NCBI RefSeq assembly: GCF_003626755.1
Contig: NZ_RBCJ01000002.1
Coordinates: forward strand, 1-64,000
Source of the DNA: Ulvibacterium marinum
Lineage (GTDB): Bacteria > Bacteroidota > Bacteroidia > Flavobacteriales > Flavobacteriaceae
Length of the DNA stretch: 64,000 nt
Direction of reading: 5' to 3'
This document shows positions 16,022-32,761 of this stretch, in pieces. The stretch's first letter is position 1. The number at the start of each line of letters is the position of its first letter. The position numbers and the translations under genes were made by a program. The notes below the pieces were generated by a model, which was not told the DNA's origin, did no database searches, and worked only from the letters and a program-made list of their open reading frames with translations.

Positions 16022-18256
16022 ATGAGAAATGTATTCCAATTTTGTTTTGTATCGGTTTTTTTGCTCGTTAGCTGTAATCAAGTCTCCGAAAAGGGCCAAA
16101 AACCAATGGGCCAAATGCCCGTTTACCAAGATGTTCCCTATTTGCAAGATTTCGCCATAAAATATGACCTTACCGATGATGTTCTTTTGCTGGCCGCCTA
16201 TGCGGACAGAAATGGTACAATTCAGGCAATCTCCTCTAATGGGCTGTACCGTACGCATGATGGTCAGTTTTTATATCCAGGTGTTTTAACGCCTGATAAG
16301 ACCTATCGCCCGCTAAGGGATAAAAAGTTGTCCGGCATGACTTTGTATAAAAATCAATTTGTGTATCTGGACGATAAAGCCGTGTTAAGCAATGCCTGGG
16401 CAGGAAATTTATATCTAAAACACGATTTACCCAATGCGAATATCATTGCCGCGGGAGGTGATTTTCTATTTCTGATCAGTGATGGTACTACGCTCCAGTT
16501 TTTATCCATGGCCAAAACGCCTTGGCAAGGGCAATTGGAAGGGGACATTGTTCAGGATATTCTGTTTGATGCGTCCCGTGAAAAATTCTGGGTTTTGGGT
16601 CAAAATACGGTTTCTAGCTTCAATATAAGTACAAGTGAACTTAAAACCGTGCTCCGGGGATCCGATTTTACCTCCTTCGCGATTTTGGACAATAAGGTAA
16701 TCATTGGCACCAATTCGGGGTATTTTGCGATGGATGCAATATCCGGTGAGCGAGTGGGTGACAAACAGACCAAATTGCCGGTAATAGAGATAACGGATCT
16801 GGAAGCTATAGATGGGGACCTTTGGTTTGGTTCAGCCCAGGGTGCGTTTAAGTTACGGAAAGATGGTAAATTCGATTATTATTATGGGAAGCGTTGGCTC
16901 CCGGGGAATAAAGTAGTACATATTTCAAAGGGTACCGATGGCTCCATACTAGTAGTTACCGATGCCGGACTTGGCCAGATCGTATTCAAGGAAATGACAC
17001 TTTTTGATAAGGCCCAATACTATGATAAACAAGTGCGCAACAGACATATTCGCTTGGGTTTTAATGCCTCTTTAACGGACTTGGAGCGAGGTAATATTGA
17101 TTCGGGGCGACTTACGGATTCCGATAATGACGGGCTTTGGACTACCATGTACCTTGCAGGGGAGGTCTTTCGGTATGCCGTTACCCAATCCGAAGAGGCC
17201 CTGCAAAATTGTAGGGAATCCATGGAGGCTATGGAACGCCTCTTCAGTATTAATCCTGTTCCCGGGTTTCCCTCACGTTCTTTTGAAAGGAGCGGCTATA
17301 TCGAGGTTTTGAACGACCCACATCGCTGGCAACATACCGATGATCCCGAATGGGATTGGAAGGCCACCACAAGTAGTGATGAAGCCATAGGCCATATTTT
17401 TGCCTATGGTGTTATGGCCGAGCTTATGGACAATGACCTAAAGGATAGGGCGATTACCCTAATAGACACTTTAATGAGCCATGTGGTACAAAACGATCTG
17501 TATATGGTAGATTTTGATGGGAAACCTACTACTTGGGGCAAATGGAACCCTGAGTATGTGAATGCCAGGCCAAAGATGGTGGGAGACCGAAAATTAAACG
17601 CCTCCAACATTATTGGTATGCTACAGACGGCCTATTATTTTACCGGGAAGGAAAAGTACAAGGAAAAGGCATTTGATCTTATGGATAACCATGGATATTT
17701 CGAAAATCTGATGCGGCCCATCAAAGAAATAGGGCCTGCCCCGGACGATGCAGACGACTGGAGCAAAATGTTGTCCGAATCCTGGAACCATTCTGATGAT
17801 GAAATGTATTATGTAGGGTACTGGGGGCTGTACAACTATGCTTTTAACGATACTTTAAAGGCAAACTACAAAAAGGCCATTATAGATCATTGGGAAGTGG
17901 AACGGCCCGAAAAAGAAGGGGCTTGGAACATTATGACCGCACTTACCGGAACTCCTGAATTTGATTTGGAAGAAGCGGCTTGGTACCTTAGGGAACATCC
18001 TATGGATCTTGTAACATGGGATATTAAAAACAGCCACCGAAAGGATATCGATTTTGTTCCGCCAAATTTTAGGGAACAGACCATCCGTGAAGTTCTGCCT
18101 CCTGATGAACGGCCCATACAACGGCATAACTCCAACATGTTCCGATTGGATAAGTTAGGGAGGGATGGCAGGCAAGAATATTCGGCCGGAGATATTTGGT
18201 TATTGCCTTATTGGATGGGAAGGTATTTAAAGGTGATAAGTGAACCACAACTTTAA
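16022..18256 (+). CDS. Lipoprotein: regulator-type beta-propeller fused to a helical putative catalytic domain
   Basis: 744 aa. Lipoprotein signal LLVSC (Cys 16). Residues about 40-330 form propeller blades of the two-component-regulator type (repeats such as DLWFGSAQGAFKL). Residues about 345-744 form an all-helical domain shared with 24121-26400 and 29748-30971. Common motifs are TTSSDEAIGH (near 450), D-G...TWGKWNPE (near 500), TGKEKY, and the C-terminal WLLPYWMGRYL. No kinase or DNA-binding part exists, so it is not a regulator; the propeller probably binds glycan and the helical domain may act on it. Reaction unknown. It follows GH92 by 204 bases and precedes the YidR-like gene by 38. 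Confidence 0.7.
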   Translation: MRNVFQFCFVSVFLLVSCNQVSEKGQKPMGQMPVYQDVPYLQDFAIKYDLTDDVLLLAAYADRNGTIQAISSNGLYRTHDGQFLYPGVLTPDKTYRPLRDKKLSGMTLYKNQFVYLDDKAVLSNAWAGNLYLKHDLPNANIIAAGGDFLFLISDGTTLQFLSMAKTPWQGQLEGDIVQDILFDASREKFWVLGQNTVSSFNISTSELKTVLRGSDFTSFAILDNKVIIGTNSGYFAMDAISGERVGDKQTKLPVIEITDLEAIDGDLWFGSAQGAFKLRKDGKFDYYYGKRWLPGNKVVHISKGTDGSILVVTDAGLGQIVFKEMTLFDKAQYYDKQVRNRHIRLGFNASLTDLERGNIDSGRLTDSDNDGLWTTMYLAGEVFRYAVTQSEEALQNCRESMEAMERLFSINPVPGFPSRSFERSGYIEVLNDPHRWQHTDDPEWDWKATTSSDEAIGHIFAYGVMAELMDNDLKDRAITLIDTLMSHVVQNDLYMVDFDGKPTTWGKWNPEYVNARPKMVGDRKLNASNIIGMLQTAYYFTGKEKYKEKAFDLMDNHGYFENLMRPIKEIGPAPDDADDWSKMLSESWNHSDDEMYYVGYWGLYNYAFNDTLKANYKKAIIDHWEVERPEKEGAWNIMTALTGTPEFDLEEAAWYLREHPMDLVTWDIKNSHRKDIDFVPPNFREQTIREVLPPDERPIQRHNSNMFRLDKLGRDGRQEYSAGDIWLLPYWMGRYLKVISEPQL

Positions 18257-18294
18257 ATCGTATAATGCTGGGTTATAGTTACAGTCGTATAAAA

Positions 18295-19674
18295 ATGGCC
18301 AGGCAGTTAAGGATCATCGCACAGTTGTGGATATCACTTTGCTTGGTTGGGTTCCTCGCTTCATGTACCAAGGATAGTTATAGGACGGAGCGTCAGCTTA
18401 CGATTGATTTCTCCCAAAACCATGATCTGGATAATAACGATAACTTTTCACCGGACGACCAATGGCTGGTGTATGATACAAGAACAGAGGAAGGTGGGAT
18501 AGGCGGAAATGGCAAAATTGAAAAGGTACATGTAGTTACCGGCGAGCAGGTAACGCTTTACGAGTTAGACCACAACAAGGCCTTTGGTCCCGGAGTTGGT
18601 GCCGTAAGCTACAGTCACACCAACAATCAAGTGGTTTTTATTCACGGACTTTTGAATGCGTCTACCGACTATCCGTATGAACAGTGGAGGAGGACCGGGG
18701 TAATCGTGGAGGACGATGCTCCCGGTATTCCTTTGTTTATGGATGCCAGGGACGTTTCCTTTCCATTTAACCCCGGAGCGTTACGGGGAGGAACACATCG
18801 TCATGAATGGAGCGGTGATGGCCAATGGATCGGTTTTACCTATAACGATGCCCTAATGAAAAAAAGGGAAGATTCTACCGGGGTAAACTACAATTTGAGG
18901 ACCATTGGCGTATCAAAAAACGAGAAGAAGGTAATTGTAAAGGACTCGTTAAAGGGAGATAATTTTTCGGGCGATTGGTTCAGTGCAGTGGTGGTTCAGG
19001 TAGAACCGAATCCAAGGAACGGCAGTGATGAAATCAGTAGGGCGGAGGCCGATAGTTGGGTAGGAACTTATGGTTATAGTAAGGACGATGGTACAAAACA
19101 AAGGGCAAGGGCCTTTATTGGCACTGTAAATGATGCAACCGGAAAGGAAGTTAAGGAAGTCTATTTGGTAGACATTCCGGAATGTCTTTCATGTATTGGG
19201 GAAGATGGCCCACTTGAGGGTACCAAAACAAGCTTTCCATCGCCTCCTGCCGGAACAGTCCAACGGAGACTGACCTATACCGTGAAATCCAAATTCCCTG
19301 GGTGTGAAGGTGTTGTGCGATCCTCGTATGACGGTGCTTTATTGGCCTTTCTGGCTTATGATGACAATAACATCAAACAAGTGTTTACAATTTCACCTAA
19401 GGGCGGTACCCCGGTACAGCAGACCTTTCACCCCAGTGATGTACAAAGCGGGGTGCGTTGGCACCCTAAAGAATATCGTATTGGTTATGTTTGGAATAAT
19501 GCGGTAGTAAGTCGTAAAATAGGGGAGAGGGCGTTTGAAATCTGGACCAAACCTTCAACCGAACCTCCTATGAATCTTGTTTGGTCGCACGATGGAAACA
19601 CAATTGCCTATAATAAAATTGTGACCAACACTAAGGGCAGATCCGCAAAACAGATTTTTGTCATTGATCTTTAG
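18295..19674 (+). CDS. YidR-like (DUF3748) beta-propeller lipoprotein
   Basis: 459 aa from the chosen ATG, which gives a clean lipoprotein signal (MARQLRII...FLASC). An in-frame ATG ten codons earlier (18265) is possible but puts a poor leader before the signal. Sequence blocks RQLTIDFSQNHDLDNND, DDQWLVYDTR, HVVTGEQ, FIHGLLNAS, GALRGGTHRHEWS and IGFTYND follow the order of E. coli YidR/DUF3748, a TolB-like propeller of unknown role. It is the last gene of the rightward group with GH92 and the propeller/helical lipoprotein, so a sugar-related periplasmic role is likely. It converges with the lyase gene at 19695. Confidence 0.75.
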   Translation: MARQLRIIAQLWISLCLVGFLASCTKDSYRTERQLTIDFSQNHDLDNNDNFSPDDQWLVYDTRTEEGGIGGNGKIEKVHVVTGEQVTLYELDHNKAFGPGVGAVSYSHTNNQVVFIHGLLNASTDYPYEQWRRTGVIVEDDAPGIPLFMDARDVSFPFNPGALRGGTHRHEWSGDGQWIGFTYNDALMKKREDSTGVNYNLRTIGVSKNEKKVIVKDSLKGDNFSGDWFSAVVVQVEPNPRNGSDEISRAEADSWVGTYGYSKDDGTKQRARAFIGTVNDATGKEVKEVYLVDIPECLSCIGEDGPLEGTKTSFPSPPAGTVQRRLTYTVKSKFPGCEGVVRSSYDGALLAFLAYDDNNIKQVFTISPKGGTPVQQTFHPSDVQSGVRWHPKEYRIGYVWNNAVVSRKIGERAFEIWTKPSTEPPMNLVWSHDGNTIAYNKIVTNTKGRSAKQIFVIDL

Positions 19675-19694
19675 CCTATACGAAAAAGTTTAGA

Positions 19695-20621
19695 TCACTT
19701 CTTGGAATCGATATTCCCCCTTAACGCCTTCAATTGATTTTCAAGTCCAATAATGTTCATAATATGCCCGTCAGCGATTTTTTGATGAAGGGCATCAAAT
19801 TCCAGAATGGGTTTTCGACTATTAGGAGTATTGTAAATGCCCTGTTTGAATAAGAGACGCTTAAAAAAGTGAATGGAAATATCCAGATGCTGATTGGAAA
19901 AGGCCAAAACGGGTAAAATCCGTTGGAACAACTCTTGCGCCTCTTCAATTTTGCCGCTGCTGTAAAGGCGATATATTTCGGTATAGCTATAGTGCATTCC
20001 CGTGGGCATAAATGCGTGGACTCCGCGTTGTAGTCCCTCCAACATTTGGGATACGGCCCAGCCGCCGCTTAAATTCAAGCGTCCTTGGGTCAACTTCAAT
20101 ATTCTTGAATACTTAATACCTGCGGGTACGGTTTCGATCTTTAAGCAACGAAAAGCTTCGCATTTATCAAACAGGTTACAAATAAGGCTATCCGGGAGGC
20201 CGTTACCGGAAAAGTCCCAGTCTTGGAGCATTATCATTTCCGGACCCAAATGGGCCAGTTCTGAAAAATGGGTTTTAAATTGGGCATCATTCTCATATGG
20301 AATCTGAAAAAGTACATTTTTGCAACCCAAGGCCAGGTGTGATTTTAATAACTTTTTACTTGCGGCAAGGTCATTCGCCCCTATTCCTGCAATTACAGGC
20401 ACCCCTTCGGAAACTTCTAGGACGGTAGCTACCATTTCAAGTCGTTCGGAAGGACTCAATTTGTAGACTTCCGAAGCCATGGCCGGCACCAAAAATCCAG
20501 CCACACCTGCTTGTAAGGCGTACCTAACGTTCTTTTTCAAAGCAGGAAAATCTATAGTATCCTCTTTGGTAAAGGGGGTATTTAAGACGGTAACGATACC
20601 GTGGAGTGGAAAAAGTTCCAT
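19695..20621 (-). CDS. DapA/NanA-family class I aldolase-like protein
   Basis: 308 aa from the first ATG. An in-frame TTG ten codons earlier (20651) could also start it. Schiff-base Lys 171 (161 from the ATG used here) lies in CLKIET, and the fold opens GIVTVLNTPFT...D..ALKKNV, typical of the DHDPS/N-acetylneuraminate lyase superfamily. The usual YN.P block with the catalytic Tyr is replaced by MLQDWDFSGN, so the classical mechanism is altered. Likely role: retro-aldol cleavage or dehydration of a keto-deoxy sugar acid in the cytoplasm. It is the last gene of the minus-strand SusC operon direction, 191 bases beyond the transporter gene, so it may have its own promoter. Confidence 0.7.
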   Translation of the reverse strand: MELFPLHGIVTVLNTPFTKEDTIDFPALKKNVRYALQAGVAGFLVPAMASEVYKLSPSERLEMVATVLEVSEGVPVIAGIGANDLAASKKLLKSHLALGCKNVLFQIPYENDAQFKTHFSELAHLGPEMIMLQDWDFSGNGLPDSLICNLFDKCEAFRCLKIETVPAGIKYSRILKLTQGRLNLSGGWAVSQMLEGLQRGVHAFMPTGMHYSYTEIYRLYSSGKIEEAQELFQRILPVLAFSNQHLDISIHFFKRLLFKQGIYNTPNSRKPILEFDALHQKIADGHIMNIIGLENQLKALRGNIDSKK

Positions 20622-20812
20622 TGTTTTTACGTATTGTATTCCTTTATTCAATTAAATCCAAGGGTGCGTTTTTAAAAAAATAGAATTTTTAGATTGGCCC
20701 GTAAACCTTATGGTAGCTAATAAAACAAAGCAGATAAGACATAGGAAGTTCGTTTTTTGATTTCACGACACTGGCGTTTTCTAGTCTGGTTTCAATTTAA
20801 ACATTTAATTGG

Positions 20813-22036
20813 CTATTCGGTTATTTTCGGATCCTGCTTTCCGGCTTTGTACCCATGTAGGGCATAGTACCCAATAAAGGCATAACATACCAGAGGAAGC
20901 ACATAGGAGAGATGTAACCCTACTTCGGGAATATCGGCAAGCATCCCTTGAAGCAAGGGCAATAGGGCACCTCCTACCGGGGCCATGACAAGGATGCCGG
21001 ACGCTTTGTTGGTATATTCGCCTAAACCATCAATGGACAGGGCAAAGATATTGGACCACATGATAGAATTAAAAAGCCCGACCGCGAGCATGGACCACAT
21101 GGCCAACCAGCCATTGCTGGTAAGGGTTACAGCCAGAAGTCCCACGGCCGCAAGGGCAGAAATGAAGAGTACTTTTTGGGCACTGACCTTCCGTAGAATG
21201 GCCGATCCTAAAAACCGTCCGATCATAAGTCCCCCCCAATACAGGGCGATATAGTTGGCGGCCTTTTTTTCTTCAAGCCCCGCGATATGGGGCTCGCCCA
21301 AAAAATTGACTATAAAGCTGCCAATGGCTACCTCTGCTCCTACATAGAGCATTAAAGCTATGGCCCCAAGGCGTAGTTGACGAAAACGTAACACATTGAT
21401 TTTTAGCTTTTTTGTTGATGGACTTATTACTTGGGGCAGTTTTAATAGTGCAAATATCCCCGCAATGGCAAAGGCGAAAAGGGCAAGGCCCACGTAAGGC
21501 CCTTCAACGGCGGCCGCAGCTTCTTTTGGGGTGGCATAGCTCCCGAGTATAAACAATCCACCGAACAGAGGGGCCAAAGTGGTGGCCAAGGAATTAACGC
21601 CTTGTGCCAGATTTAAACGGCTGGAGGCCGTTTCCGGCGGACCTAAAATAATGACATAAGGGTTGGCCACCACCTGAAGGATAACACAGCCGGTAGCCAT
21701 GGTAAAAAGCCCGAACAAAAACAACGGATAGGAAATGGCCCAGGATGCAGGCAAAAAAAGTAATGCGCCCAAACCAATGGTGAGCAATCCCGCTGAGATA
21801 CCTTTCTTATAACCGATCCGCTCAATGAGCATGCTTGCCGGAATGGCCATCATAAAATAGGCCCCAAAAAAGCAAAATTGAATCAGCATGGTCTCGGTAT
21901 AGTCCATGGTGAACAGCCCCTTAAAATGGGGGATAAGAATATCATTCAGCGAAACAATGCCTCCCCAGATAAAAAATAGTAACGTCATTAGGGCAAAAGC
22001 ACCTCTATAGGAGGTTGAACGACTGGTATTTTCCAT
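20813..22036 (-). CDS. MFS sugar:H+ symporter of the FucP/NagP/GluP type
   Basis: 407 aa with about 12 predicted membrane helices. It opens ALMTLLFFIWGGIVSLNDILIPHFK, the helix-1 signature of the FucP family (fucose, glucose/galactose and N-acetylglucosamine permeases), with GYKKG in the first cytoplasmic loop and NPYVIILGPPETASSRLNLAQ (split across helices) later. It brings a monosaccharide across the inner membrane. The SIS isomerase and ROK kinase genes directly upstream suggest an amino sugar or hexose that is phosphorylated after uptake. It is separated from the SIS gene by 97 bases. Confidence 0.85.
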   Translation of the reverse strand: MENTSRSTSYRGAFALMTLLFFIWGGIVSLNDILIPHFKGLFTMDYTETMLIQFCFFGAYFMMAIPASMLIERIGYKKGISAGLLTIGLGALLFLPASWAISYPLFLFGLFTMATGCVILQVVANPYVIILGPPETASSRLNLAQGVNSLATTLAPLFGGLFILGSYATPKEAAAAVEGPYVGLALFAFAIAGIFALLKLPQVISPSTKKLKINVLRFRQLRLGAIALMLYVGAEVAIGSFIVNFLGEPHIAGLEEKKAANYIALYWGGLMIGRFLGSAILRKVSAQKVLFISALAAVGLLAVTLTSNGWLAMWSMLAVGLFNSIMWSNIFALSIDGLGEYTNKASGILVMAPVGGALLPLLQGMLADIPEVGLHLSYVLPLVCYAFIGYYALHGYKAGKQDPKITE

Positions 22037-22133
22037 AAATTGGGTTTTAGGTTAACGTTAGGGTATCGGGACGGAATCGACTATACTTTTTCTTCATCTT
22101 TCCGTATATTTTAGGCTCTAAACCTAGCCATAT

Positions 22134-22763
22134 TTAAAAAAAAGTCTCTTCGAGCGTGATGCATAAAGCATGGTATATGGGTAAGTGGTATTCTTGTACT
22201 TCGGCAGTTTGCACGGCCGGCACACATATGGCCACATCACAAAGATTCTTTAGCTCACCACCCATTTCTCCTATCAGCCCAAGGGTCGATACCCCTTTTG
22301 CCTTGGCCACGATACAGGCATCGATTACGTTTTGTGAATTGCCAGAAGTGCTGATTGCCAAAAGGACATCTCCCTTTTTTCCTAGGGCTACGACTTGTTG
22401 AGCAAAGACAAAATCTCCCCCAATATCGTTTAAAATGGCCGATAATAATGCTCCATGGGCATTTAAGGAAACGGCTGGCAGGGCACCTTCAAGTGTCGAG
22501 GCCAAAAGGTCTCCCCGGGTTTCCGAAATGGCCCTTAGATTTTTTGCCAACTCTGAATCCACAGTCCGTTTTTTGGAAAAGGACTTCATTAACTCACCCA
22601 CAATGTGATCGGCATCCGATGCACTTCCCCCATTACCACACAGCAATAGTTTACCTCCCTTTTTATAAGATTCAATGAGGAGTTCGGCAGCGGAACGTAT
22701 TTCGTTTTCACAAAATGCCAAAGGTGGGTAACGCTTAATAAGGGTTTTTAGAATGCTATTCAT
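22134..22763 (-). CDS. SIS-domain sugar-phosphate isomerase (GmhA-like)
   Basis: 209 aa, single SIS domain, cytoplasmic. It has the GmhA/DiaA-type nucleotide-like phosphate loop CGNGGSASDADHI (residues about 42-54) and a second phosphate-binding stretch ISTSGNSQNV. The catalytic Glu/His of heptose isomerases may be matched by E in VGELM and H in EYHLPIYHAL. GmhA interconverts sedoheptulose 7-phosphate and heptose phosphate, but relatives in sugar loci act on other sugar phosphates. Its stop-start spacing of 20 bases to the ROK kinase upstream supports sequential action: kinase, then isomerase. The substrate is not determined. Confidence 0.8.
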   Translation of the reverse strand: MNSILKTLIKRYPPLAFCENEIRSAAELLIESYKKGGKLLLCGNGGSASDADHIVGELMKSFSKKRTVDSELAKNLRAISETRGDLLASTLEGALPAVSLNAHGALLSAILNDIGGDFVFAQQVVALGKKGDVLLAISTSGNSQNVIDACIVAKAKGVSTLGLIGEMGGELKNLCDVAICVPAVQTAEVQEYHLPIYHALCITLEETFF

Positions 22764-22783
22764 AAGCCTGATTTATTCAAAGA

Positions 22784-23758
22784 TTACTGCATGGCAACGC
22801 CCAGGGCCGCATAGTCCCCGATCTTATCCCCTAGTTTGGCGGGCACAATTTCACAGGCATCGAATGCCGCTGTGATAGCTTCACGTTTCAAAACCTTTAG
22901 GACCAACGGGCGTAGCAAAGCTTCGTTACGGGCATAAATACTGCCAATTACAATACGTTCGGGGTTAATAATATCTACTAAAAGTGCCAATCCTTTACCT
23001 AGGTATTGGGCGGTTGTTTCAATAATTTCCATGGCCAATGGGTCTCCCGCATAGGCCGCTTCAAAAATGGTTTTTGCATCAAGTATATCCAAATCCGTAA
23101 CTGAACTGCAAAAACCGACATTTATAGCTTGTTCTAGTTTTTCGCGTACACGGATCTTGGCCAGTTGGGCTATTCCCCCACCACTGCAAAAGCCTTCAAA
23201 GGAACCGGCCTTGCCAAAACCTATAGGCCCTGAATCGGCCATGCGTACGTGGCCAATTTCACCGGCAAGATCGTTTGCGCCCGAATAGATTTGGCCATTA
23301 AGGATGAGGCCGGCACCCATGCCTGTGCCAAAGGTGAGAAAAATCATATTTTCAACACCCTGGCCCGCACCCATTTTCCATTCCGCCAAGGCACCGGCAT
23401 TGGCATCATTCTGTAGGACTACAGGAACCCCAAATTCATCTTCAAATTGGTCTACGATACCCACCTCGTTCCAGCCCGGTAAATTGGGCGGCGATTTAAT
23501 GATACCCTTTTTTGAATCCAAAGGCCCCCCACAACTAACACCTATTTTGAGCAAACCCTTGGGGCCATACCGTGTCATCAAGGTTTTGATGTGCGCCTTA
23601 AATTCCTCCAAAATGGCCTTATGCCCCCGATCTGCCTTAGTTTCAAAGCGTTTTTTGTCCACAAGCCTACCTTTGGCATCCCCCAATACTATGGCACACT
23701 TAGTACCGCCAATATCCAGCCCCAAATAATACGAATCAATTTTTAGAGTTTCGTGCAT
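22784..23758 (-). CDS. ROK-family sugar kinase
   Basis: 324 aa. The ATP-binding DIGGTKCAIV is at about 15-24, the catalytic/sugar site QNDANAGALAEW in the middle, then FLTFGTGMGAGLI. The ROK zinc loop is atypical: after GEIGH it reads GPIGFGKAGSFEGFCSGG and lacks the three Cys of the usual C.CG..GC motif, as in a known Bacteroidota subtype. It phosphorylates a hexose or acylhexosamine in the cytoplasm with ATP. It lies upstream of the SIS isomerase and permease; a 360-base gap with one small ORF precedes it. Whether it prefers glucose, mannose, GlcN or ManNAc is open. Confidence 0.85.
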   Translation of the reverse strand: MHETLKIDSYYLGLDIGGTKCAIVLGDAKGRLVDKKRFETKADRGHKAILEEFKAHIKTLMTRYGPKGLLKIGVSCGGPLDSKKGIIKSPPNLPGWNEVGIVDQFEDEFGVPVVLQNDANAGALAEWKMGAGQGVENMIFLTFGTGMGAGLILNGQIYSGANDLAGEIGHVRMADSGPIGFGKAGSFEGFCSGGGIAQLAKIRVREKLEQAINVGFCSSVTDLDILDAKTIFEAAYAGDPLAMEIIETTAQYLGKGLALLVDIINPERIVIGSIYARNEALLRPLVLKVLKREAITAAFDACEIVPAKLGDKIGDYAALGVAMQ

Positions 23759-23765
23759 AACCGGT

Positions 23766-23951
23766 TTATTTTGAACCGAATAATAAATCTATCGAGGCCT
23801 GTAATCGCGAATAATCCGAAAAACCATCTTTTTCTTTTAAACTAGCACTGCTTGAAATGACTCCGATCGCGTTTTCCTTACCAAAAAACAAGTGCATCAG
23901 GGCGGAATCGATTCCGCCCAAAAAGGTCGTTATGGTTCCTTGGGCTTGCAT
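23766..23951 (-). CDS. Small hypothetical ORF upstream of the ROK kinase
   Basis: 61 codons, ATG at 23949-23951, ending 7 bases before the kinase start. It contains GTITTFLGGIDSALMHLFFGK, which has a moderately hydrophobic stretch, and nothing recognisable. It may be a real small protein, the tail of a deleted gene, or only leader sequence between the lipoprotein gene at 24121 and the kinase. Evidence is limited to its position, in the operon direction and immediately before the kinase. The rest of the 362-base gap 23759-24120 shows no other gene. Confidence 0.25.
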   Translation of the reverse strand: MQAQGTITTFLGGIDSALMHLFFGKENAIGVISSSASLKEKDGFSDYSRLQASIDLLFGSK

Positions 23952-24120
23952 ACTATTTTTGGTACTTCATATTGAAAAATGGCTTCGACTTGCCCTAAGA
24001 TACTCATTGTTTTATGACTCACAGACCGGTTCCTCAAGATTGTTTTTCTCCTGTTCAAAGTATTCTCTTCCAGCATATCCATGGTTACTATTTTATAATT
24101 ATTGGAGGTATTGTTCCCTC

Positions 24121-26400
24121 TTATTGAATTAAATTTAAATAGCGTCCCATCCAATACGGCAGTAACCAAAAAACGGGTTCTCTTAATTGATGGGGATTCC
24201 CACTTATTGCATGGTAAGGGTTCCGATCCCAGCGGATGGTCCTATACTCACTTGGAGGCCTTAACTCGTTTACTTGCAAATCTTCCAAGATCGGCTCACG
24301 AACTACTTGTAAATCCTCCCTTTTTCCGTTGTCTATCCTCCAATCGATTAAATCCAAAGGGGCATCCTTTAAAAAGAAAATGGAACTTTCCAGTTCATCC
24401 GTACCCTTGGTAAAAAGATTATAGGTGAAATTGACAAATGGACTCTTGGCCCCTTTGTTTTTATGGAACCATTGGTCCAGATGCGTTCTATATTCCTTTT
24501 GTAATCCCTTATCTTCCTCCGTGCTCATTAAGGGCGGGTAGCAATACAAGGCAAGATAGGTATCAAAGTAAGTCTCCCAAGCCGGATTGGTGGTATACAG
24601 TTCTTTTGCATTTTCGAGGTATTTCTCCTCATGTATTAATTTGAGGTACTCTTTTTGATACTTTTCATCTTTTGTAATATGATAAGCGAACTTTAAAAAG
24701 GAAAGCAGTTCCAAAGAATTCAATGCCTTTTCGGGATTCCAATCCAAATCACGATTCAAAAGGTCCGGTGACCAGACGCCCCATTTGGTATGCGTATCGT
24801 CTACCCCCACAAGGTTAAAATCATTGCGTATAAGATGGTCCATTATTTTACTAAAATGATGAGCCACCCTTTCTTTTTCATCCTCGTCCGCAACCAGGGT
24901 ATAATACCAATAGTAACCGAACAAATGCCCGCATAGTTCATCGCTGCTCGTATCTCCCTTCCATTTCCATTTACCATCCTTGGAGACATGCCATCGTTTT
25001 TCAACACTCTTCTGTCTCGGATTGGCTATTCTTTCCTCGGCCCTTTGTTTCGCATTGTAGGTTCGGTTCATATCATGCGATTTTTTCCAAGAAACCGGGA
25101 TAATGGTCCTCGCGAAAAAACCGTCTATTTGGGTCACCTCTCGGAGGTAATGCAAAAACTCGAACGCCTTTTTAGCACGTTCTTTGGCCTCAGGGCTTTT
25201 TGTTACGGCATATCGAAACGATTCCATGGCCAGGTACATGGCCGTGTACTCGCCATCATTGTCATCATCTTCCCTTTCAATAACCGTGGTATCCCCGGCT
25301 ATGGGCAGTCTGGATCGGGCAATTATCCAGGGTTCCCTTACATGATGGTCCATTAAGGCTTTATAAAAGAAATCGGCCTTGCCGGCCAAGGTCATTGTCC
25401 GATTTTTTATGGCGCTAATACCCTTTGCCGTAGCTATCCAGGCCGTACCGGAGGCATCAAAGGAGATATCCCGTACCTGATCGGACAATAACCACCTTTG
25501 TCCCAACAAGACCGAATAGTCCTTGGAGCTTGGTTCAAATCTTGAAATTCCATAGTTGGTTCCAACCCACATTCGGCCATCCGGACCTTTCCTTACAGCG
25601 GTAACATCTCCACTTGGAATACCATCTTTTGGTAATTTCTCGCCGATTTTCTGGTTCTGATCCCTAAGGGTAACGCCGCCCATACCACCCACCCATAATA
25701 TATTATCATGGTCAAAGTCTAGGCCTTTTACCGCCGCACTGATCAAATCCTCGTTGCCCTGGAAAGCTTTGGTCCCGTTTTCCGCACAATGAAAAAGACC
25801 AACATCCGTGCCTATCCACAGTCCACTTCTGCCATCGGATAGTACGGCCCGTATACTTTTAGGGACATGATATTCTTTTTTTTGCCATTGGCCCTTATTA
25901 AACAACCAGATTCCATCTGGTCCCAAGGCATATACACCTTCTTTGGCGACGGCCAGTTTGCCAATGGGAAAGTCCAACCCTTGTGTTTTACGTGTTTTTT
26001 GGGAGGAATAGGTGTACACGCCGTTCCAAGTGGCCAGCCATAAGGTTCCTTCCATATCCATTTTAAGATCATAGGCAGGACCTTGATTCGCACCTTGAAT
26101 CATTAATTGCCACGTTTTGGCGTCTTTCTTTTTTTGATACACTCCATGTTTGGTCGCTGCCCATAAGGTACCCGTTTTGTCCGAGTAAACCGCTCTTACG
26201 TCATTGGCCTCCGGAATGCGCTTGTCAATGATAAAAGGCTCATGGTATTCCTGAAGAAAGGGTTTATCCACATACGCGTTTACTCCAGCGGATAAATCCT
26301 TGTTCCCTTTTTCTTTTTCTGAAGAACCACAGGAACCCAATAAAATGATAAATATGTATAATCCCAGCTTTTGCAGGCCGTTGCGATATGGTTTTTTCAT
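24121..26400 (-). CDS. Lipoprotein: regulator-type beta-propeller fused to a helical putative catalytic domain (second copy)
   Basis: 759 aa. Lipoprotein signal LLGSCG (Cys 24). Residues about 60-340 carry Reg_prop blades such as TLWAATKHGVYQ, TLWLATWNGVYTY, LWIGTDVGLFH and MWVGTNYGISRF. Residues 360-759 carry the same helical domain as 16022-18256, with GDTSSDELCGH, a DDTHTKWGVWSPD block, TKDEKY, and LPYWMGRYLNLIQ at the very end. It lacks histidine kinase and DNA-binding domains. It lies in the SusC-led operon right after the GH67N-like gene (15-base spacing). It probably works outside the cell or in the periplasm on the imported glycan; the reaction is not known. Confidence 0.7.
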   Translation of the reverse strand: MKKPYRNGLQKLGLYIFIILLGSCGSSEKEKGNKDLSAGVNAYVDKPFLQEYHEPFIIDKRIPEANDVRAVYSDKTGTLWAATKHGVYQKKKDAKTWQLMIQGANQGPAYDLKMDMEGTLWLATWNGVYTYSSQKTRKTQGLDFPIGKLAVAKEGVYALGPDGIWLFNKGQWQKKEYHVPKSIRAVLSDGRSGLWIGTDVGLFHCAENGTKAFQGNEDLISAAVKGLDFDHDNILWVGGMGGVTLRDQNQKIGEKLPKDGIPSGDVTAVRKGPDGRMWVGTNYGISRFEPSSKDYSVLLGQRWLLSDQVRDISFDASGTAWIATAKGISAIKNRTMTLAGKADFFYKALMDHHVREPWIIARSRLPIAGDTTVIEREDDDNDGEYTAMYLAMESFRYAVTKSPEAKERAKKAFEFLHYLREVTQIDGFFARTIIPVSWKKSHDMNRTYNAKQRAEERIANPRQKSVEKRWHVSKDGKWKWKGDTSSDELCGHLFGYYWYYTLVADEDEKERVAHHFSKIMDHLIRNDFNLVGVDDTHTKWGVWSPDLLNRDLDWNPEKALNSLELLSFLKFAYHITKDEKYQKEYLKLIHEEKYLENAKELYTTNPAWETYFDTYLALYCYPPLMSTEEDKGLQKEYRTHLDQWFHKNKGAKSPFVNFTYNLFTKGTDELESSIFFLKDAPLDLIDWRIDNGKREDLQVVREPILEDLQVNELRPPSEYRTIRWDRNPYHAISGNPHQLREPVFWLLPYWMGRYLNLIQ

Positions 26401-26415
26401 TGCTGATGCTACTCG

Positions 26416-28770
26416 CTATTGTTTTAGAATCCAGACATCGGTTATCCGAGATTGCTGTCTCCAGTTAAGATGGTCCTCATCCGGTTTATCGAAGGTTATG
26501 TTTAGTTTACCATCCGTTATTAACTCTTTGGGAAGCGGAAATTCCTTGAATTGTTCAAATCCCTTTTCGTATTTGCTAGGTTTTAAGAGCTCGCCATTTG
26601 CCCTTAAAAGAGCTTCCCCATAACCGGAAACGCGAATGATATACTCCGAATTAGGGTCCAACCCGTAATACGCCAAGGTGGGACTGAACTGAAAGAGTTG
26701 TGTGGAGAGCCGTTTTCTACTAAGACCGTTATTTTCCCACAGGTAATCTATAGCATCATCGGTCTTAGAGGTCACATGTTTGGCGTCAGCGCTGGAAATG
26801 TTGTCATAGAAGCTTCCTGAACCTGGATCTTCATAGGTTCTAAGGAATTCCAACCGCTTTAATTTTTCATCTTCGGTTTTTAGAAGGCTAATTTTTTTGA
26901 ATTCATCCTCAAGCCACCATCGGTTGTTCAATGGATGGTCGATAAAGTCGAGAATGGCGCCCCTTTCGGAACCGCTGGCATTGTACTTTTCCACACTTGT
27001 TTGGGCTCCTACCGAATGGAACAGGGCTTCGGCATATTCAAAGACCTTATTCTTCAAATGTTGGGATATGGGTTCGTTATCTGCTTTTTGCATATGGGCC
27101 AGTGCTTTTTCCATCGCTTTTTCGGCCCCCATTTCCGGGGCTGCCTTGAATATTTCGTAAGCCTCTGACTCCAATTTCTTTTCGTATGCCGAACGATCTT
27201 GGATATAGGCGTCATAGTAGGCGCGCATAATTAACTGCTGCCACCGCCAATTATCCCGTAGCCCAGGATTTCCAGTCTCCAAGCCTTGCCAAAGGGCCAA
27301 GGTTTTTTGAACCGTGGGATTATCCGATAACGGCCCCTCCCAGTTTTTTTCAAGGGCAAAGATGCCCTCTGCCGCTGTTTCCGCCACTTCCGAGCCAAAG
27401 AAGAAACGACAATACTCCGTAATCGTCTTGTTTAAATCGATGTTTGGATTCCATCCCAATTGACTCCATACGACTTTGTTGACATCATCATGGGAACCAT
27501 CCGAATAGGTAATAAACCCATCCGTATGTTGCGTGTCCTCATTAAAGAGTTTGGCGTAGTGCCGGGGTTGGGGGTTGCAGGGCTCCCGACCTAAGGTCAA
27601 TGCAAAAGCCTGATCCCAATTAGCCGCAGGGTAGTGACAGCGTACGGTATGGGTAATATCTGGATAAAACCGATGCTTGTATTTTTTAGGCAGTAATTGG
27701 CGTTCCAATGCAATGGGAGGGCTGCTGGGCCCGTAAACCAATCCCGTGAGCCAATCTGGATCGTGTTCTTCTAGATAATTGAAAAAGTATTCCGCCTTTT
27801 CCTCTTCAAAGCCTTGCAACGAAACCCAAATACCCGCCTTAGGATGGTGCTTTTTAAGTATTTCCGAAAGGTCTTGCAAGTAGGGCATAAGATCCGATGG
27901 ATGGTTGTCGCCAGGGTCGCCCCCTGGTACAAAAACCCCATCAAGCCGTGGACATCTTGCGTAAAAGGCCTCTTGTTGGGCAAGGCCTTCCTTATGTGCA
28001 TCCTTTTCCGTTAAATCCCGTGGTGCCGGGGTCCAAGCCCAATAATCGGCCTGGTACTTGTTGCAAATTTTGCTGAGTTCCACTTCCATTTTTTGGGGAT
28101 GAACCTTAAAATGGACACTGGAATTGGGGTCTTGAAAAGGAATGTTCTCAAAACTATTGGCTCCGAACAATACCTGTTCCCGAAAGTGCTGATCAAATTG
28201 TTCCACGGTCCATGAATCCCAAGAATTGGCCGTATTTCGATAACCAAATTGATGTCCCCGAATGGCGTATTTCGGCGATTCTGAAAAATCGGTATCCCTG
28301 GCAATTTGTAACTGCCCATTCCCTATTTGCGCCGTACGGAGGAGTTTGCCTAGTCCATAAAGTATACCACGGACGTCTGCCCCTATAACCCAGAGGATGT
28401 CTTTTCCGTTTTTCTGAATATGTACCAGGCGATATGCTTCGGCCGGCATTGTTTCCATATCTTGAACCTCAGGTAATGGCTCTCCGAACAAATCAGGGTC
28501 GTCTTGCAAGGCAAGACCTATGATAGTTCCGTTTTCCCAATTCTTGCCCATTTCAAGCTTCGGGCCATTGCGTTTGTGGAGCTCTTCGAACAAAATAGTT
28601 TTAGAGGTACTTCTAAACTGTTCCTCAAGGGTTGTACTTATTAGGAGGGTGGCCTTCGAAAATTTCAATATATCAGAATCCTTTTTACTACATGCGTTGG
28701 TGAAGGGTACTAGCAGTAAGCATAGGAGTAGTTTAAGAATATGGCAACGTGCGATACTTGAATTCATCAT
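26416..28770 (-). CDS. Lipoprotein alpha-glucuronidase-superfamily glycosidase candidate (second copy)
   Basis: 784 aa. Lipoprotein signal FTNACSK. A GH67N-like N-terminal domain (about 40-155, ending IGADVRGILYGLGKLLR) is followed by a barrel-like region with AIRGHQFGYR, FGANSFENIP, VPGGDPGD, WVSLQGF, YPDITHTV and YSDGSHDDVNK. Every block has a counterpart in 8944-11400, so they are paralogues; the present copy is lipid-anchored, the other has a Sec signal. The C-terminal part is a beta-rich domain ending DVWILK. The first two codons are both ATG. Likely an exo-glycosidase of the SusCD operon; the sugar released is unknown, with a uronic acid or hexosamine the best guess. Confidence 0.65.
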   Translation of the reverse strand: MMNSSIARCHILKLLLCLLLVPFTNACSKKDSDILKFSKATLLISTTLEEQFRSTSKTILFEELHKRNGPKLEMGKNWENGTIIGLALQDDPDLFGEPLPEVQDMETMPAEAYRLVHIQKNGKDILWVIGADVRGILYGLGKLLRTAQIGNGQLQIARDTDFSESPKYAIRGHQFGYRNTANSWDSWTVEQFDQHFREQVLFGANSFENIPFQDPNSSVHFKVHPQKMEVELSKICNKYQADYWAWTPAPRDLTEKDAHKEGLAQQEAFYARCPRLDGVFVPGGDPGDNHPSDLMPYLQDLSEILKKHHPKAGIWVSLQGFEEEKAEYFFNYLEEHDPDWLTGLVYGPSSPPIALERQLLPKKYKHRFYPDITHTVRCHYPAANWDQAFALTLGREPCNPQPRHYAKLFNEDTQHTDGFITYSDGSHDDVNKVVWSQLGWNPNIDLNKTITEYCRFFFGSEVAETAAEGIFALEKNWEGPLSDNPTVQKTLALWQGLETGNPGLRDNWRWQQLIMRAYYDAYIQDRSAYEKKLESEAYEIFKAAPEMGAEKAMEKALAHMQKADNEPISQHLKNKVFEYAEALFHSVGAQTSVEKYNASGSERGAILDFIDHPLNNRWWLEDEFKKISLLKTEDEKLKRLEFLRTYEDPGSGSFYDNISSADAKHVTSKTDDAIDYLWENNGLSRKRLSTQLFQFSPTLAYYGLDPNSEYIIRVSGYGEALLRANGELLKPSKYEKGFEQFKEFPLPKELITDGKLNITFDKPDEDHLNWRQQSRITDVWILKQ

Positions 28771-29014
28771 ACTTAGGCTTCAAATCGTTTTATCGAACAG
28801 GTTTCATGATATGAAGTTAGCTACTACATGTAATGGGGTAGGTGATACACAAATCTATCTTAAAATTCCTGAGAAGCTTTATGATATATTATTCGTTCCT
28901 CATGTTATTTTACCCGAATCGTCCCATATTTCCATTTCCGTTGGCAGATTGGCAAATATAACATCGGCGGACAACCGAGATTCGTAGAAAGCCCTTGGGT
29001 TAGGAAAAGGTGGC

Positions 29015-29731
29015 TTATTCAATATCCTTTGCGCAACGGAAACCTACGGGATAGGCCCGTATATCCTCTGGTAACAAGTAGTAACGTTGCGTAGTCCGCA
29101 AAAAGGACTGGTTGTTAAAATTGGAGCCTCCCCGCATAACCTTGTATGTCTCGCCGTATTCTTCCATAGGTGTTTGGTTTCCGGGATAGGGCTGGTACCA
29201 ATCATTGGTCCACTCCCAGACTCCACCGGCCATATCATAGCACCCATATGGGCTTTCGGGTTTGGCTATGGCCGTTCCACGGGTACTCTTTTGATCCCAG
29301 ACCACATAGGTGCTATCATAGGTATCTCCCCAGGGAAACATACGGCCATCCGTGCCCCGCGCCGCTTTTTCCCACTCCTTTTCCGTGGGCAATCGTTTTC
29401 CGGCCCATTTGGCATAGGCATCGGCCTGTGACCAAGTAACTACGGCCGCGTTACTCTTCTTGTCTTCAGGAAAACGAAACGTCGGGTCGAACTGGGCAAA
29501 TTCGGCATTGCTTATCTCGTAGCGATCAATGAAGAAGGCTTTGGTAGAAGCGATGTGTTTGGGCCTTTCATCCGGATCTCCGATTTCGCTGCCCATGATA
29601 AACGTTCCCGCTGGAACATAAACCATGCCTTTAGGTGGTTCGGGTGGTTTAGGTAAAGTTTGTGAAAAGGTAATAAAAGTCCCAAGGACATAGAATACCA
29701 ATAGGCCGAGGTGTTTTGAAAAAAAGTGCAT
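29015..29731 (-). CDS. Exported SUMF1/FGE-fold protein without the FGE cysteine pair
   Basis: 238 aa from ATG 29729-29731, which begins a clean signal peptide (MHFFSKHLGLL...). A start ten codons upstream (29761) would overlap the preceding gene. The FGE-sulfatase fold is clear: MVYVPAGTFIMGS, EISNAEFAQF, RLPTEKEWEKAARG, MFPWGD, YGCYDMAGGVWEWTND, KVMRGGSN and GFRC. The catalytic Cys pair of true formylglycine-generating enzymes, normally after the RGGS block, is missing (RTTQRYYLLPED), so it should not activate sulfatases; indeed no sulfatase gene is in the window. It probably binds sugar or peptide. It sits between two proteins of the SusC operon. Confidence 0.75.
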   Translation of the reverse strand: MHFFSKHLGLLVFYVLGTFITFSQTLPKPPEPPKGMVYVPAGTFIMGSEIGDPDERPKHIASTKAFFIDRYEISNAEFAQFDPTFRFPEDKKSNAAVVTWSQADAYAKWAGKRLPTEKEWEKAARGTDGRMFPWGDTYDSTYVVWDQKSTRGTAIAKPESPYGCYDMAGGVWEWTNDWYQPYPGNQTPMEEYGETYKVMRGGSNFNNQSFLRTTQRYYLLPEDIRAYPVGFRCAKDIE

Positions 29732-29747
29732 AATAGTGGTATTGTGG

Positions 29748-30971
29748 TTACCAGTTTTCATCGATCAAGTTATAGTATCTTCCAAACCAATAGTTCCGTA
29801 TCATGGCGGCGGCAGTACCTTCTTCCTCGGCCACCACTTGTTTATAGGTACCGTCCTCTTGCGGCACGTTGAATGTCCTGGTTTTACGATCAAAACCCCA
29901 CATGTCCTTTATAGTCTGGATGCGATGGTCGTTCAGTACATTTTCATCCATAAGTACTTGATAGACCATGATAAACCATATGGAACTTTCAAAGCTGAAT
30001 TCCATATCCTTCCAATCATGCCAGTGACGGTTAAGGTTCATACGATATTTGATCAGCAAGTTAGGGTCTTCTTCGTAGCGCATCACCATATAAAGTGACC
30101 TTGCCGCGTGGTAATCGTCTCCCGGGTTTCGCCACTCCTTGGGAAACAAGAGTTTTGAATTTATTTGATCGTCATCGTAGTGATAGCGATCAATGAGCAT
30201 ATGATAGGCTGCGGAATACCGCTCCTTGCCCGTGATTTTATGGGCCACTTTAAGGCCTGCCAACATAATCAATGAATTGAGCGCTTGATGCGGAAGGTCT
30301 GGGCAGAGATTGCCCCACAGGGTCATTTTTCCGTCCAAATCGGTCAGTTTAAAATTGTCATCAATGATCCTGCCCACAAAACGATCGATAAGTTGGGCTA
30401 CTTGTTCTTTGTGTGCTCTGTCGGCGCAAAGTTCCCAATAGGTGCCCAATCCATAAAAAATAGAGGTGAACTTGTCAATGCTAAGGTCACCTAACCACCG
30501 ATACTCGGGCATGGAGGTAGATCGGTGCCATTCGTTGTACCATAGCACCTTTTCATGCCAAAGGGGCTTGTCCGTCTTGTTGTAACTTCGGGCAAAAAGC
30601 CCATCTACACCGGTAACCCTTTCCAATTTTAGTATGGCCTCAAAAATTTGATCGGCAATACGCCTGTCCTTGGGGTCTTTGGTAATGGCGTACTTATGGG
30701 AATACGCGGCCAGCATTTCACTAGTGGGATCAAGACAATCGGCTTGTTTACCTATTAGGGGCTTTTCAAGACCTGCTGGCGGAAAAAACACCCGTTGCAT
30801 AATAGCCCCTTCGTTCCAGTGGTTACCCAACATTAATGCATCGAACATTTCCACCTTTTTGTGCAGGGGATCCGTTTTTCTGGGAAAGGCATTGACTTTT
30901 TGTCCCTTTACGGGTACCCACGGCCCACAAAGGCAATTCATGAGTAATATAAATAAAAATCGTTTCCGCAT
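29748..30971 (-). CDS. Exported stand-alone helical-domain protein (propeller-less homologue)
   Basis: 407 aa with a Sec signal peptide (ending PVKGQ). It has no propeller. It aligns along its length with the C-terminal domain of 16022-18256 and 24121-26400: SEMLAAYSHKYAITKDP, VDGLFARSYN, LGDLSIDKFT, LTDLDGKMTLWGN, LNSLIML..., TGKERY and YWFGRYYNLI at the C-terminus. The shared Asp, Trp and Gly positions suggest a common active site in an (alpha/alpha)-barrel-like enzyme. It is the first gene after SusD, the position usually held by a surface glycan-binding protein or key enzyme, so a direct role on the SusCD ligand is likely. The reaction is unknown. Confidence 0.65.
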   Translation of the reverse strand: MRKRFLFILLMNCLCGPWVPVKGQKVNAFPRKTDPLHKKVEMFDALMLGNHWNEGAIMQRVFFPPAGLEKPLIGKQADCLDPTSEMLAAYSHKYAITKDPKDRRIADQIFEAILKLERVTGVDGLFARSYNKTDKPLWHEKVLWYNEWHRSTSMPEYRWLGDLSIDKFTSIFYGLGTYWELCADRAHKEQVAQLIDRFVGRIIDDNFKLTDLDGKMTLWGNLCPDLPHQALNSLIMLAGLKVAHKITGKERYSAAYHMLIDRYHYDDDQINSKLLFPKEWRNPGDDYHAARSLYMVMRYEEDPNLLIKYRMNLNRHWHDWKDMEFSFESSIWFIMVYQVLMDENVLNDHRIQTIKDMWGFDRKTRTFNVPQEDGTYKQVVAEEEGTAAAMIRNYWFGRYYNLIDENW

Positions 30972-31066: not shown

Positions 31067-32761
31067 CTACCATGGCTCCGTAACGCCTTGCAGTATCCAA
31101 GGCTTGGACCATTGGCTATCCCCTGAATCGTTTGAGGGATTACTCTCCGTAAACCCTGTGGTCTCCAAGCGGCCAACGGCATCCAGCCAATTGGCTCCAT
31201 TAGAATTTTTATCCGAATCATCGTATACAAAGCGAACGGGAATAACACTGGAAACCGCCCAAGGTCCGGGGGCCAGATCAGGAAGTCCTGTACGCCTCCA
31301 ATCCAAATAGGCCTCGGAAGCCGCGGTGAAGGAAGCAATCCATTTTTGCCACATAATTTGCTCCAAGGTGCCATCATAGGCTATTTCGGGCTGGGCTATG
31401 TAATCGTCATATTGATCATCGATGCCCCAGGCTTCAAACGAGGCCCGTATACCTTCTTCATATAATGCTCCCGCATCCCCTGAGCCCCATCCTCTTTGGG
31501 CGGCCTCGGCCTTTAAAAAGCTAAGCTCGGAATAGGAGAACATACGGGATTTCAGGTAATCCCCGGAGCGCTCCCTAAATTGGACGTTCAACTCGGAGGT
31601 GTGTACGCTGGACACTTCCCTGTCCGTATTGGGGTTTAGGTTATACGCCACGGGATCCGCATTGAGTACCGATACGGGAAGGCCTACATATACGCTACTG
31701 GTGTCTATAAGTACGTTATTCCCGTCTGCAGCGATATCGAACCAAGTGTCCGGGTCATAAATAAAATAGTTGTTATTGGCCAAGGAATCCTGATTGATGT
31801 ACCGAATACCAGAAAGAATGGTATCCCTCACGTTATTTGGAATCTCGTCACTGGGCTGCACTTGAATAGGGATGGCTACGGGTGCAAACCAAATATCCTG
31901 TCTGGGATCGTTCCATTCCTTTAACAAATCCACCAAGGTGGCACAGGGACGGATCCGAGTAAATCCGGAGGAGTTTCCTTCCTGAAAGAAATTAGGCCAG
32001 GAATCGTCATCGTTGTTGCCAAGGAAAGGAATGGACAACTCCTCGTCCACACTCTCGAACATGGGCTTGGATAGCGTAGCTTCTACCCCGCTTTGGGCAA
32101 ATGAGGGATCTTTTTCGCTCAATCGCATGTAGTAGCGAAGCGTCATGGCATTGGCAAATTTTTCCCATCGCTCCACATCGCCATTAAAGAAAATATCACT
32201 AGTAACGCCAACACCAGCTGGCGGATTGGTCCCAAAAATGGCCGCGGCCTCTTGGAACATCTCAATAATTCCTTTGTAAATGTCTTCAGAGGAATCGTAT
32301 ACCGGGGTGGGATACTCAATGGGATTCAGGGATTGACTAAAGGGAACGTCGCCGTAGTAATCCACCAAAAGGCCATAGTTATATGCTTGCAGTACCTTAA
32401 CAACCCCAATAAGAAAATTATTGGATTGTTCCGTAGCTAGGTCCTCGGCCAATTGCAGGGTTCTTAGGTTATCGTAAAAGTCGGGCCAGTCAGTATCGCC
32501 GGAGCCGTCCCATTCATATTTATGGTCACCCCAGCCCTGCTTTTGGGTGTGCTGCATCCAGGCTCCCAAGTATTGGGAATACCCATCCTCGGTAGTATTC
32601 CGTAGTAAGGATACCATAACGTTGGTGACCAAAAAGTTGGGGTCACCTTCATTAAGCCCTACCCCATTGGGGTTTTCATTAATATCGGTAATGTCTTCAC
32701 AGGATGACAATACCATAACTGCGGCCATGGCACCCAAGACAATTTGTTTTAGATATTTCAT
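31067..32761 (-). CDS. susD: SusD/RagB-family glycan-binding lipoprotein
   Basis: 564 aa. Lipoprotein signal VMVLSSC (Cys 21), then EDITDINENPNG, the usual SusD start. Further family features: helical TPR-like segments around LQLAEDLATEQSN and YNYGLLVDYYGDVPFSQS, a block with RYYMRLSEKDP, and MWQKWIASFTAASEAYLDWRRTG near the C-terminus. SusD caps the SusC channel on the cell surface and binds the oligosaccharide. It is 33 bases downstream of susC, so one transcription unit. The set of aromatic residues that would name the ligand cannot be read off. This is the SusD-like 2 type by the DWRRTGLP block. Confidence 0.9.
   Translation of the reverse strand: MKYLKQIVLGAMAAVMVLSSCEDITDINENPNGVGLNEGDPNFLVTNVMVSLLRNTTEDGYSQYLGAWMQHTQKQGWGDHKYEWDGSGDTDWPDFYDNLRTLQLAEDLATEQSNNFLIGVVKVLQAYNYGLLVDYYGDVPFSQSLNPIEYPTPVYDSSEDIYKGIIEMFQEAAAIFGTNPPAGVGVTSDIFFNGDVERWEKFANAMTLRYYMRLSEKDPSFAQSGVEATLSKPMFESVDEELSIPFLGNNDDDSWPNFFQEGNSSGFTRIRPCATLVDLLKEWNDPRQDIWFAPVAIPIQVQPSDEIPNNVRDTILSGIRYINQDSLANNNYFIYDPDTWFDIAADGNNVLIDTSSVYVGLPVSVLNADPVAYNLNPNTDREVSSVHTSELNVQFRERSGDYLKSRMFSYSELSFLKAEAAQRGWGSGDAGALYEEGIRASFEAWGIDDQYDDYIAQPEIAYDGTLEQIMWQKWIASFTAASEAYLDWRRTGLPDLAPGPWAVSSVIPVRFVYDDSDKNSNGANWLDAVGRLETTGFTESNPSNDSGDSQWSKPWILQGVTEPW

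Follow-up and report, generated by a model that had tools for sequence, protein, structure and literature searches.

Three proteins predicted from a 64,000-nucleotide stretch of Ulvibacterium marinum DNA (contig NZ_RBCJ01000002.1, positions 1 to 64,000 of the forward strand; hereafter the window) share a C-terminal helical domain, and together with their relatives they are best seen, on the evidence of predicted models, as a new and unnamed lineage within the alpha/alpha toroid superfamily that is joined to a propeller of the sensor type. By sequence comparison the domain is unclassified in the Pfam, NCBIfam and PDB sequence libraries. We refer to the three proteins as copies A, B and C (Table 1) and give about an even chance to the reading that they are exported proteins with a glycoside hydrolase (GH)-type toroid whose target is a glycan containing mannose or uronate, the enzymatic role being what we infer.

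The shared C-terminal domain

All three copies are intact open reading frames (ORFs), and pairwise BLASTP confirmed the proposal, made earlier in a sequence-only reading of the window, that they have a C-terminal domain in common, with a length of 419 residues in A, 424 in B and 375 in C. A and B matched with 221 bits (26% identity over 792 columns, propeller included) and B and C with 122 bits (28% over 444 columns), and even in the weakest pair, A and C (69 bits, E 9e-17, 23% over 378 columns), the similarity by this measure is far above chance. Copy C used as a query in the 5.9-Mb genome found both B (E 2e-24) and A (4e-12). Two further paralogs, D (84633-86948; 58% identical to B) and E (92889-95090), lie on the same contig outside the window, so that the count of three holds for the window but the genome carries at least five copies. 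In the fetched loci we found 66 members, of which 64 were aligned; L099, which duplicates the DNA of L087, and L033, which is truncated, were set aside. The motif blocks picked out in the sequence-only reading are real: S-x-D, T-x-W and the Tyr of the terminal YW.GRY are present in 64/64 aligned domains and the Asn of LNS in 59/64.

Pfam gave no credible family for this domain in A, B or C or in 12 domains (set A1) scanned singly, and in these sequences the models for GH76 (PF03663, E up to 1), AGE (PF07221) and GH88/GH105 (PF07470) were all without a match. NCBIfam on A, B and C gave nothing above a cut-off, the matches of B lying mostly in the propeller and far below the cut-offs, and a phmmer search of the PDB with copy C returned 0 matches. 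No confident match to a known non-catalytic family was thus found in the Pfam, NCBIfam and PDB sequence searches. A plasmid collection held no match for copy A. Among the titles and abstract beginnings covered by a literature search, no paper was found to describe the domain; a six-hairpin protein of Maribacter, described as hypothetical in PMC11036162, could not be linked to the toroid family here. Two candidates were rejected. A 12-domain profile run against the PDB had as its best row a TPR-like repeat at E 0.16. DUF2750 was seen in 2/12 domains and in 4/23 and 1/24 proteins (best E 4e-5), and four E-type domains scanned alone gave 17.9 to 23.2 bits over about 58 residues, against a cut-off of 27 bits. 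Other stray Pfam rows, which were not rescanned singly, were taken as chance.

Predicted fold

The (alpha/alpha)-barrel envisaged in the sequence-only reading was borne out by the predicted model of copy C (14 sequences), an alpha/alpha toroid near GH76, AGE, GH9 and GH125, with a mean predicted local distance difference test score (pLDDT) of 66 and a predicted TM score of 0.75, mostly confident from about residue 80 to 310. In VIA-align its best row was 7tem (Z 19.9 over 298 residues, 3.9 A), followed by cellobiose 2-epimerases, GH76, GH9 and GH125 at Z 15 to 18, the epimerases and GH76 standing at about 17. The top Foldseek rows (E 4e-5 to 2e-4) included 4mu9 (3.6e-5), 7tem (4.8e-5) and GH76 4v1s (1.0e-4) as well as epimerases, and GH88 appeared in that list only as 3wiw, at rank 30. 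The fold searches with the model of copy B were filled by propeller rows, so the toroid of B was barely probed there.

Profile comparison of the family with AGE (19 sequences) gave a probability of 89.5% over 112 columns, while eight unrelated locus families stayed below 1%. The values were 0.53% for GH88 (13 sequences), 0.5% for GH76 (one sequence only) and below 1% for ten 700-residue toroid-like frames that weakly match PF03663 and that we take to be YyaL. GH88, AGE and GH76 are toroid families that are alike, and when set against each other they scored only 31% (GH88-AGE), 13% (GH76-GH88) and 2% (GH76-AGE), a low sensitivity, so the negatives against GH88, GH76 and the 700-residue frames exclude little. 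Weaker alignments to AGE were obtained in other registers too, which is usual where helical hairpins repeat, and we read the match as superfamily kinship.

The propeller

The model of copy B (23 sequences, pLDDT 77.6) has 27 strands from residue 48 to 336 and helices thereafter, and the 27 strands would make up seven blades of four strands each, provided that the ring is closed by the first strand. Its first 15 Foldseek rows were all propellers, from the three two-component-type sensors BT4663, BT4673 and BT3049. Such hybrid-sensor propellers matched at Z 29 to 30 over about 270 residues, with unrelated WD40 propellers close behind at Z 27.5 to 28.3. Of the two propellers claimed in the sequence-only reading, that of copy B stands on its own Pfam match (Reg_prop, E 1.5e-18, above the cut-off). 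Pfam finds no Reg_prop in copy A, and its propeller was assigned from the full-length similarity to B and from an N-terminal profile that matches 59/59 long members, 53 of which, A included, built the profile. At E up to 0.01, Reg_prop was found in 18/23 rows of one full-length alignment (A2) and 10/24 of another (A4), with sequence P0001 in both. As had been claimed, Pfam detected no kinase or DNA-binding part in the propeller-bearing copies, and no Y_Y_Y or regulator part; the ORF ends with the toroid.

For the Arg-Trp and DxDNDG counts L033 was kept, giving 65 members. An Arg-Trp pair near the end of the propeller is present in 59/59 propeller-bearing members (the next residue is L or M in 56 and F or I in three), and neither residue varies in the two full-length alignments (23 and 24 rows). 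Since this pair is always kept, the propeller is not freely exchangeable, which revises the idea of a sensor propeller reused as a module; the nearness of the propeller to hybrid two-component sensors is in line with that idea. A DxDNDG loop, a type of loop in which calcium is commonly bound, occurs in 49/59 propeller-bearing members and in 0/6 C types. The toroid was more conserved than the propeller in 5/5 comparisons, for example 31.5 versus 15.7% between A and B and 77.5 versus 65.1% between two B types.

Conserved residues and subtypes

Eleven columns are invariant in 64/64 aligned domains, in copy B numbering K341, T400, L419, R431, S485, D487, T538, W540, Y594, D613 and Y749, and this holds across all the types (A, B/D, C, E and F). 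H353 (61/64) and N561 (59/64) are nearly so. Of the ten invariant columns that are polar or aromatic, 4 fall at N-ends of alternate helices, compared with 38 of the 414 other positions, with a Fisher p of 0.011 that is post hoc and uncorrected. Judged from secondary structure and conservation only, Asp487 and Asp613 would form, with Arg431 and Tyr594/Tyr749, a catalytic cleft located at that end of the toroid from which the inner helices start.

A maximum-likelihood tree split off the six propeller-free C types on one branch with a support of 100/100 and in 200/200 bootstrap trees, and the four F types likewise fell on one side of a branch. With a length of 3.66 the C branch is among the long ones that, as the tree tool warns, may be misplaced, so the C clade may either have lost its propeller or never have had one. 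The C types keep D487, D613, R431 and Y749 and depart elsewhere: D382 is present in 58/58 propeller-bearing copies compared with Cys in 6/6 C types, E488 in 56/58 (56/64 domains overall, with Gln in 2 others) compared with Lys in 6/6, and H492 in 54/58 compared with Ile in 6/6. Two other His are common in propeller-bearing members, H353 (55/58) and H522 (52/58), the latter being Arg in 6/6 C types. The differences at D382, E488 and H492 make one shared activity for A, B and C doubtful, and copy C may be specialised or binding-only.

The F subtype has a shorter N-terminal part (L087:7240-9369, L096:9337-11478, L097:8426-10609 and L098:6294-8423). Its members adjoin A types or sit one gene away, and none stands beside A in the window.

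Context across loci and distribution

Neighbour genes were counted by homology (at least 90 bits) to the window genes named here, in 46 fetched loci with a member, and as these loci are 10 to 20 kb long, differ in length and include many near relatives, the counts are not independent. A susC/susD homologue was present in 20 of them, a GH67N-like gene in 14 and GH92 in 8. The 21 loci with a member nearest A had susC/susD in 14, GH67N-like genes in 12 and GH92 in 7, and the five C loci had susC/susD in 4, GH67N-like genes in 5, GH92 in 3 and an FGE-like gene in 5. The conservation of the FGE-like gene beside C in these 5/5 other C loci suggests a joint function. The GH92 neighbours point to alpha-mannosides and the GH67N-like and aldolase-like genes to uronates, although these gene assignments are proof of neither.

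The presence of the family is patchy. It was matched in 17/397 genomes of the bacterial family, its own included, or 16/397 when G062 (E 4e-4, in a 2438-residue frame) is left out as a probable chance match, and in 7/395 genomes of a phylum sample, again with its own; no more than four candidates were scored in any one genome, which makes the copy counts lower bounds. The nearest named relatives in the genome scan were marine members of the Flavobacteriaceae, among them Kriegella, Maribacter and Arenibacter, and there was no match in the two other genomes of the same genus (G001 and G002).

Proposed function and its alternatives

The view taken in the sequence-only reading, that these proteins form a new exported, glycan-active family, is supported in part, by the unclassified toroid, by its invariant Asp, Arg and Tyr residues and by the susC/susD genes in 20/46 loci. 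Under this view the seven-bladed propeller, which would have a common ancestry with hybrid two-component sensors, would bind or position the glycan and would contact the toroid through its conserved last blades, and the short copy C would be a paralogue that has diverged, either to a different specificity or to binding alone. A more specific version, which we offer tentatively and rate as less than an even bet, is that this is a new glycosidase family in which the hybrid-sensor propeller has been permanently joined to a catalytic toroid, so that both share one cleft by way of the Arg-Trp pair and the DxDNDG loop, with the propeller-free copy C, which has neither, having become a separate enzyme or a glycan-binding protein behind SusD.

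Several observations weigh against the view of these proteins as exported glycoside hydrolases. The model of copy C is of middling confidence, with residues 320-390 below pLDDT 50, and residues 685-743 of model B are mostly below 50 as well. The top Foldseek rows for C have a TM score of only about 0.5 and root mean square deviations of 6 to 9 A, non-hydrolases (epimerases and one terpene cyclase) are among the VIA-align rows for its toroid, and lyases too use toroid folds. When the leading loops were included, the test for a conserved helix-end face was not significant (8/10 versus 236/414, p 0.20), and E488, D382, H492 and D696 are absent from the C types. A lipobox-like pattern was found in just 18/58 long members and 2/6 C types (a crude pattern, with starts unchecked), and the export calls for the window copies were read from the N-termini by eye with no predictor. 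Finally, susC/susD genes were present in only 5 of the 23 loci whose member is nearest B or D, a group that takes in the F types, the Arenibacter B types lying mostly amid other genes.

The same toroid and propeller could instead belong to non-catalytic glycan-binding or sensing proteins in which both parts bind glycan, comparable to glycan-binding proteins of the cell surface or to sensors that no longer have a signalling half. The nearness of the propeller to the sensing portions of hybrid two-component proteins fits this, as do the loss of several polar residues in the C types and the position of copy C right behind SusD, a slot often taken by glycan-binding proteins. We nevertheless consider it unlikely, if a serious contender, since ten invariant polar or aromatic positions, including two Asp, in 64 domains are judged to be more than binding usually needs and since it is the toroid and not the propeller that is better conserved. 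A polysaccharide lyase that uses a toroid-borne set of Tyr, His, Asn and Arg to cleave a glycan of uronic acids would account for Y749 and R431 (64/64), H353 and N561, and for the GH67N-like, HpcH-aldolase-like and DapA-like neighbours, all of whose matches are below curated cut-offs. This reading is improbable in our view; the scan of 20 neighbours, a minority of all, named no enzyme of the GH88/105 type.

An AGE-type sugar epimerase or isomerase is suggested by the nearest folds, by a profile probability that exceeds the 31% between GH88 and AGE and by the common H353, H492 and H522 of propeller-bearing members. The profile match is one of helical-hairpin repeats that also align in other registers, however, PF07221 finds nothing, two of the three His are replaced in all C types and export would be odd for an AGE-type epimerase, and we regard an epimerase as very improbable. 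Least probable of all is that the domain is already classified under a CAZy number; CAZy may hold families that are carried by neither Pfam nor NCBIfam, but nothing credible came from Pfam for A, B, C and the 12 domains or from the PDB sequence searches, and nothing above a cut-off from NCBIfam for A, B and C.

Relation to known systems

Among the closest known systems are the GH76 endo-alpha-1,6-mannanases (4mu9 BT_3782, 4v1s BT2949 and 6shm ShGH76), with the same predicted toroid fold, rows at the top of the Foldseek list and GH92 genes in the locus there too. PMC9213526 assigns 4mu9 to GH76 and gives the adjacent acids of this family as DD, the second being Glu in BT2949. This pair resembles, at the level of sequence, D487-E488 at a helix start here. 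Unlike in GH76, the second acid here is Lys or Gln in some members, a propeller is present, and neither PF03663 nor the GH76 profile (one sequence only) gives a match. The AGE/cellobiose 2-epimerases (PF07221) have the same toroid fold at Z of about 17 and the profile similarity over 112 columns, but the family here is apparently exported, carries a propeller and has no PF07221 match. AGE enzymes use a pair of catalytic His, and two of the three common His of the family here are absent from C types, the positions having been compared in sequence only. The best structural row by Z, 7tem (YPO2471, an exported protein of unknown function), is a toroid of about 400 residues but has just 11-13% identity, and its name was not found in the literature searched. 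The hybrid two-component sensors BT4663, BT4673 and BT3049 have the same Reg_prop propeller type as copy B; such sensors carry two propellers while copy B has one, and in copy B a toroid follows the propeller in place of any Y_Y_Y, kinase or regulator part.

If the family is enzymatic, toroids that are unnamed in Pfam (five copies in this genome) would take a share in breaking down glycans in Arenibacter, Maribacter, Kriegella and other marine flavobacteria, and their fusion to propellers would illustrate an exchange of parts between sensors and enzymes.

Features of the window

The claim that one copy comes right after SusD is correct: copy C follows susD at a distance of 95 bp and is read from the same strand (Table 1).

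Table 1. Copies of the toroid family and neighbouring genes in the window
Feature	Position	Strand	Description
Copy A	16022-18256	+	744 residues; lipoprotein-like start by eye (LVSC); N-terminal propeller part by similarity to copy B, helical-toroid domain 325-743
Copy A, C-terminal helical domain	16994-18253	+	419 residues
Copy B	24121-26400	-	759 residues; lipoprotein-like start by eye (LGSC); Reg_prop-type propeller 48-336, toroid 336-759
Copy B, C-terminal helical domain	24124-25395	-	Invariant R431, S485, D487, T538, W540, Y594, D613, Y749
Copy C	29748-30971	-	407 residues; helical domain alone, no propeller; signal-type start by eye
SusD homologue	31067-32761	-	PF12771, E 1.5e-81; directly upstream of copy C
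SusC-type TonB-dependent transporter	32795-36193	-	Named by eye from translation; homologues in other loci
GH92 alpha-mannosidase-type gene	13454-15817	+	PF07971, E 2.2e-180; directly upstream of copy A
FGE-sulfatase-domain protein	29015-29761	-	PF03781, E 6.2e-46; next gene after copy C, 14-bp overlap
Large unclassified protein	26416-28770	-	784 residues; GH67N-like by its paralogue at 8944-11400; 15 bp upstream of copy B
Large protein	8944-11400	-	818 residues; sub-threshold GH67 N-terminal match, 21 versus 24.3 bits

The product of 26416-28770 had no Pfam match and no PDB relative, and this protein and that of 8944-11400 may represent a second unclassified enzyme family. An epimerase gene at 6726-8003 (plus strand) encodes a protein matching the Runella glucose 2-epimerase 8h1k with 692 bits, with no evident signal peptide by eye. 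The oxidoreductase at 4658-6142 (minus strand) has a sub-threshold match to the glycoside 3-dehydrogenase BT_2158 (132 versus 750 bits), which could hint at 3-keto-sugar chemistry. On a contig of a Bacteroidia metagenome-assembled genome, a GH57-domain protein (L036:1974-3728, plus strand; PF03065, 33 bits) is encoded between a family member nearest A and a GH92 gene.

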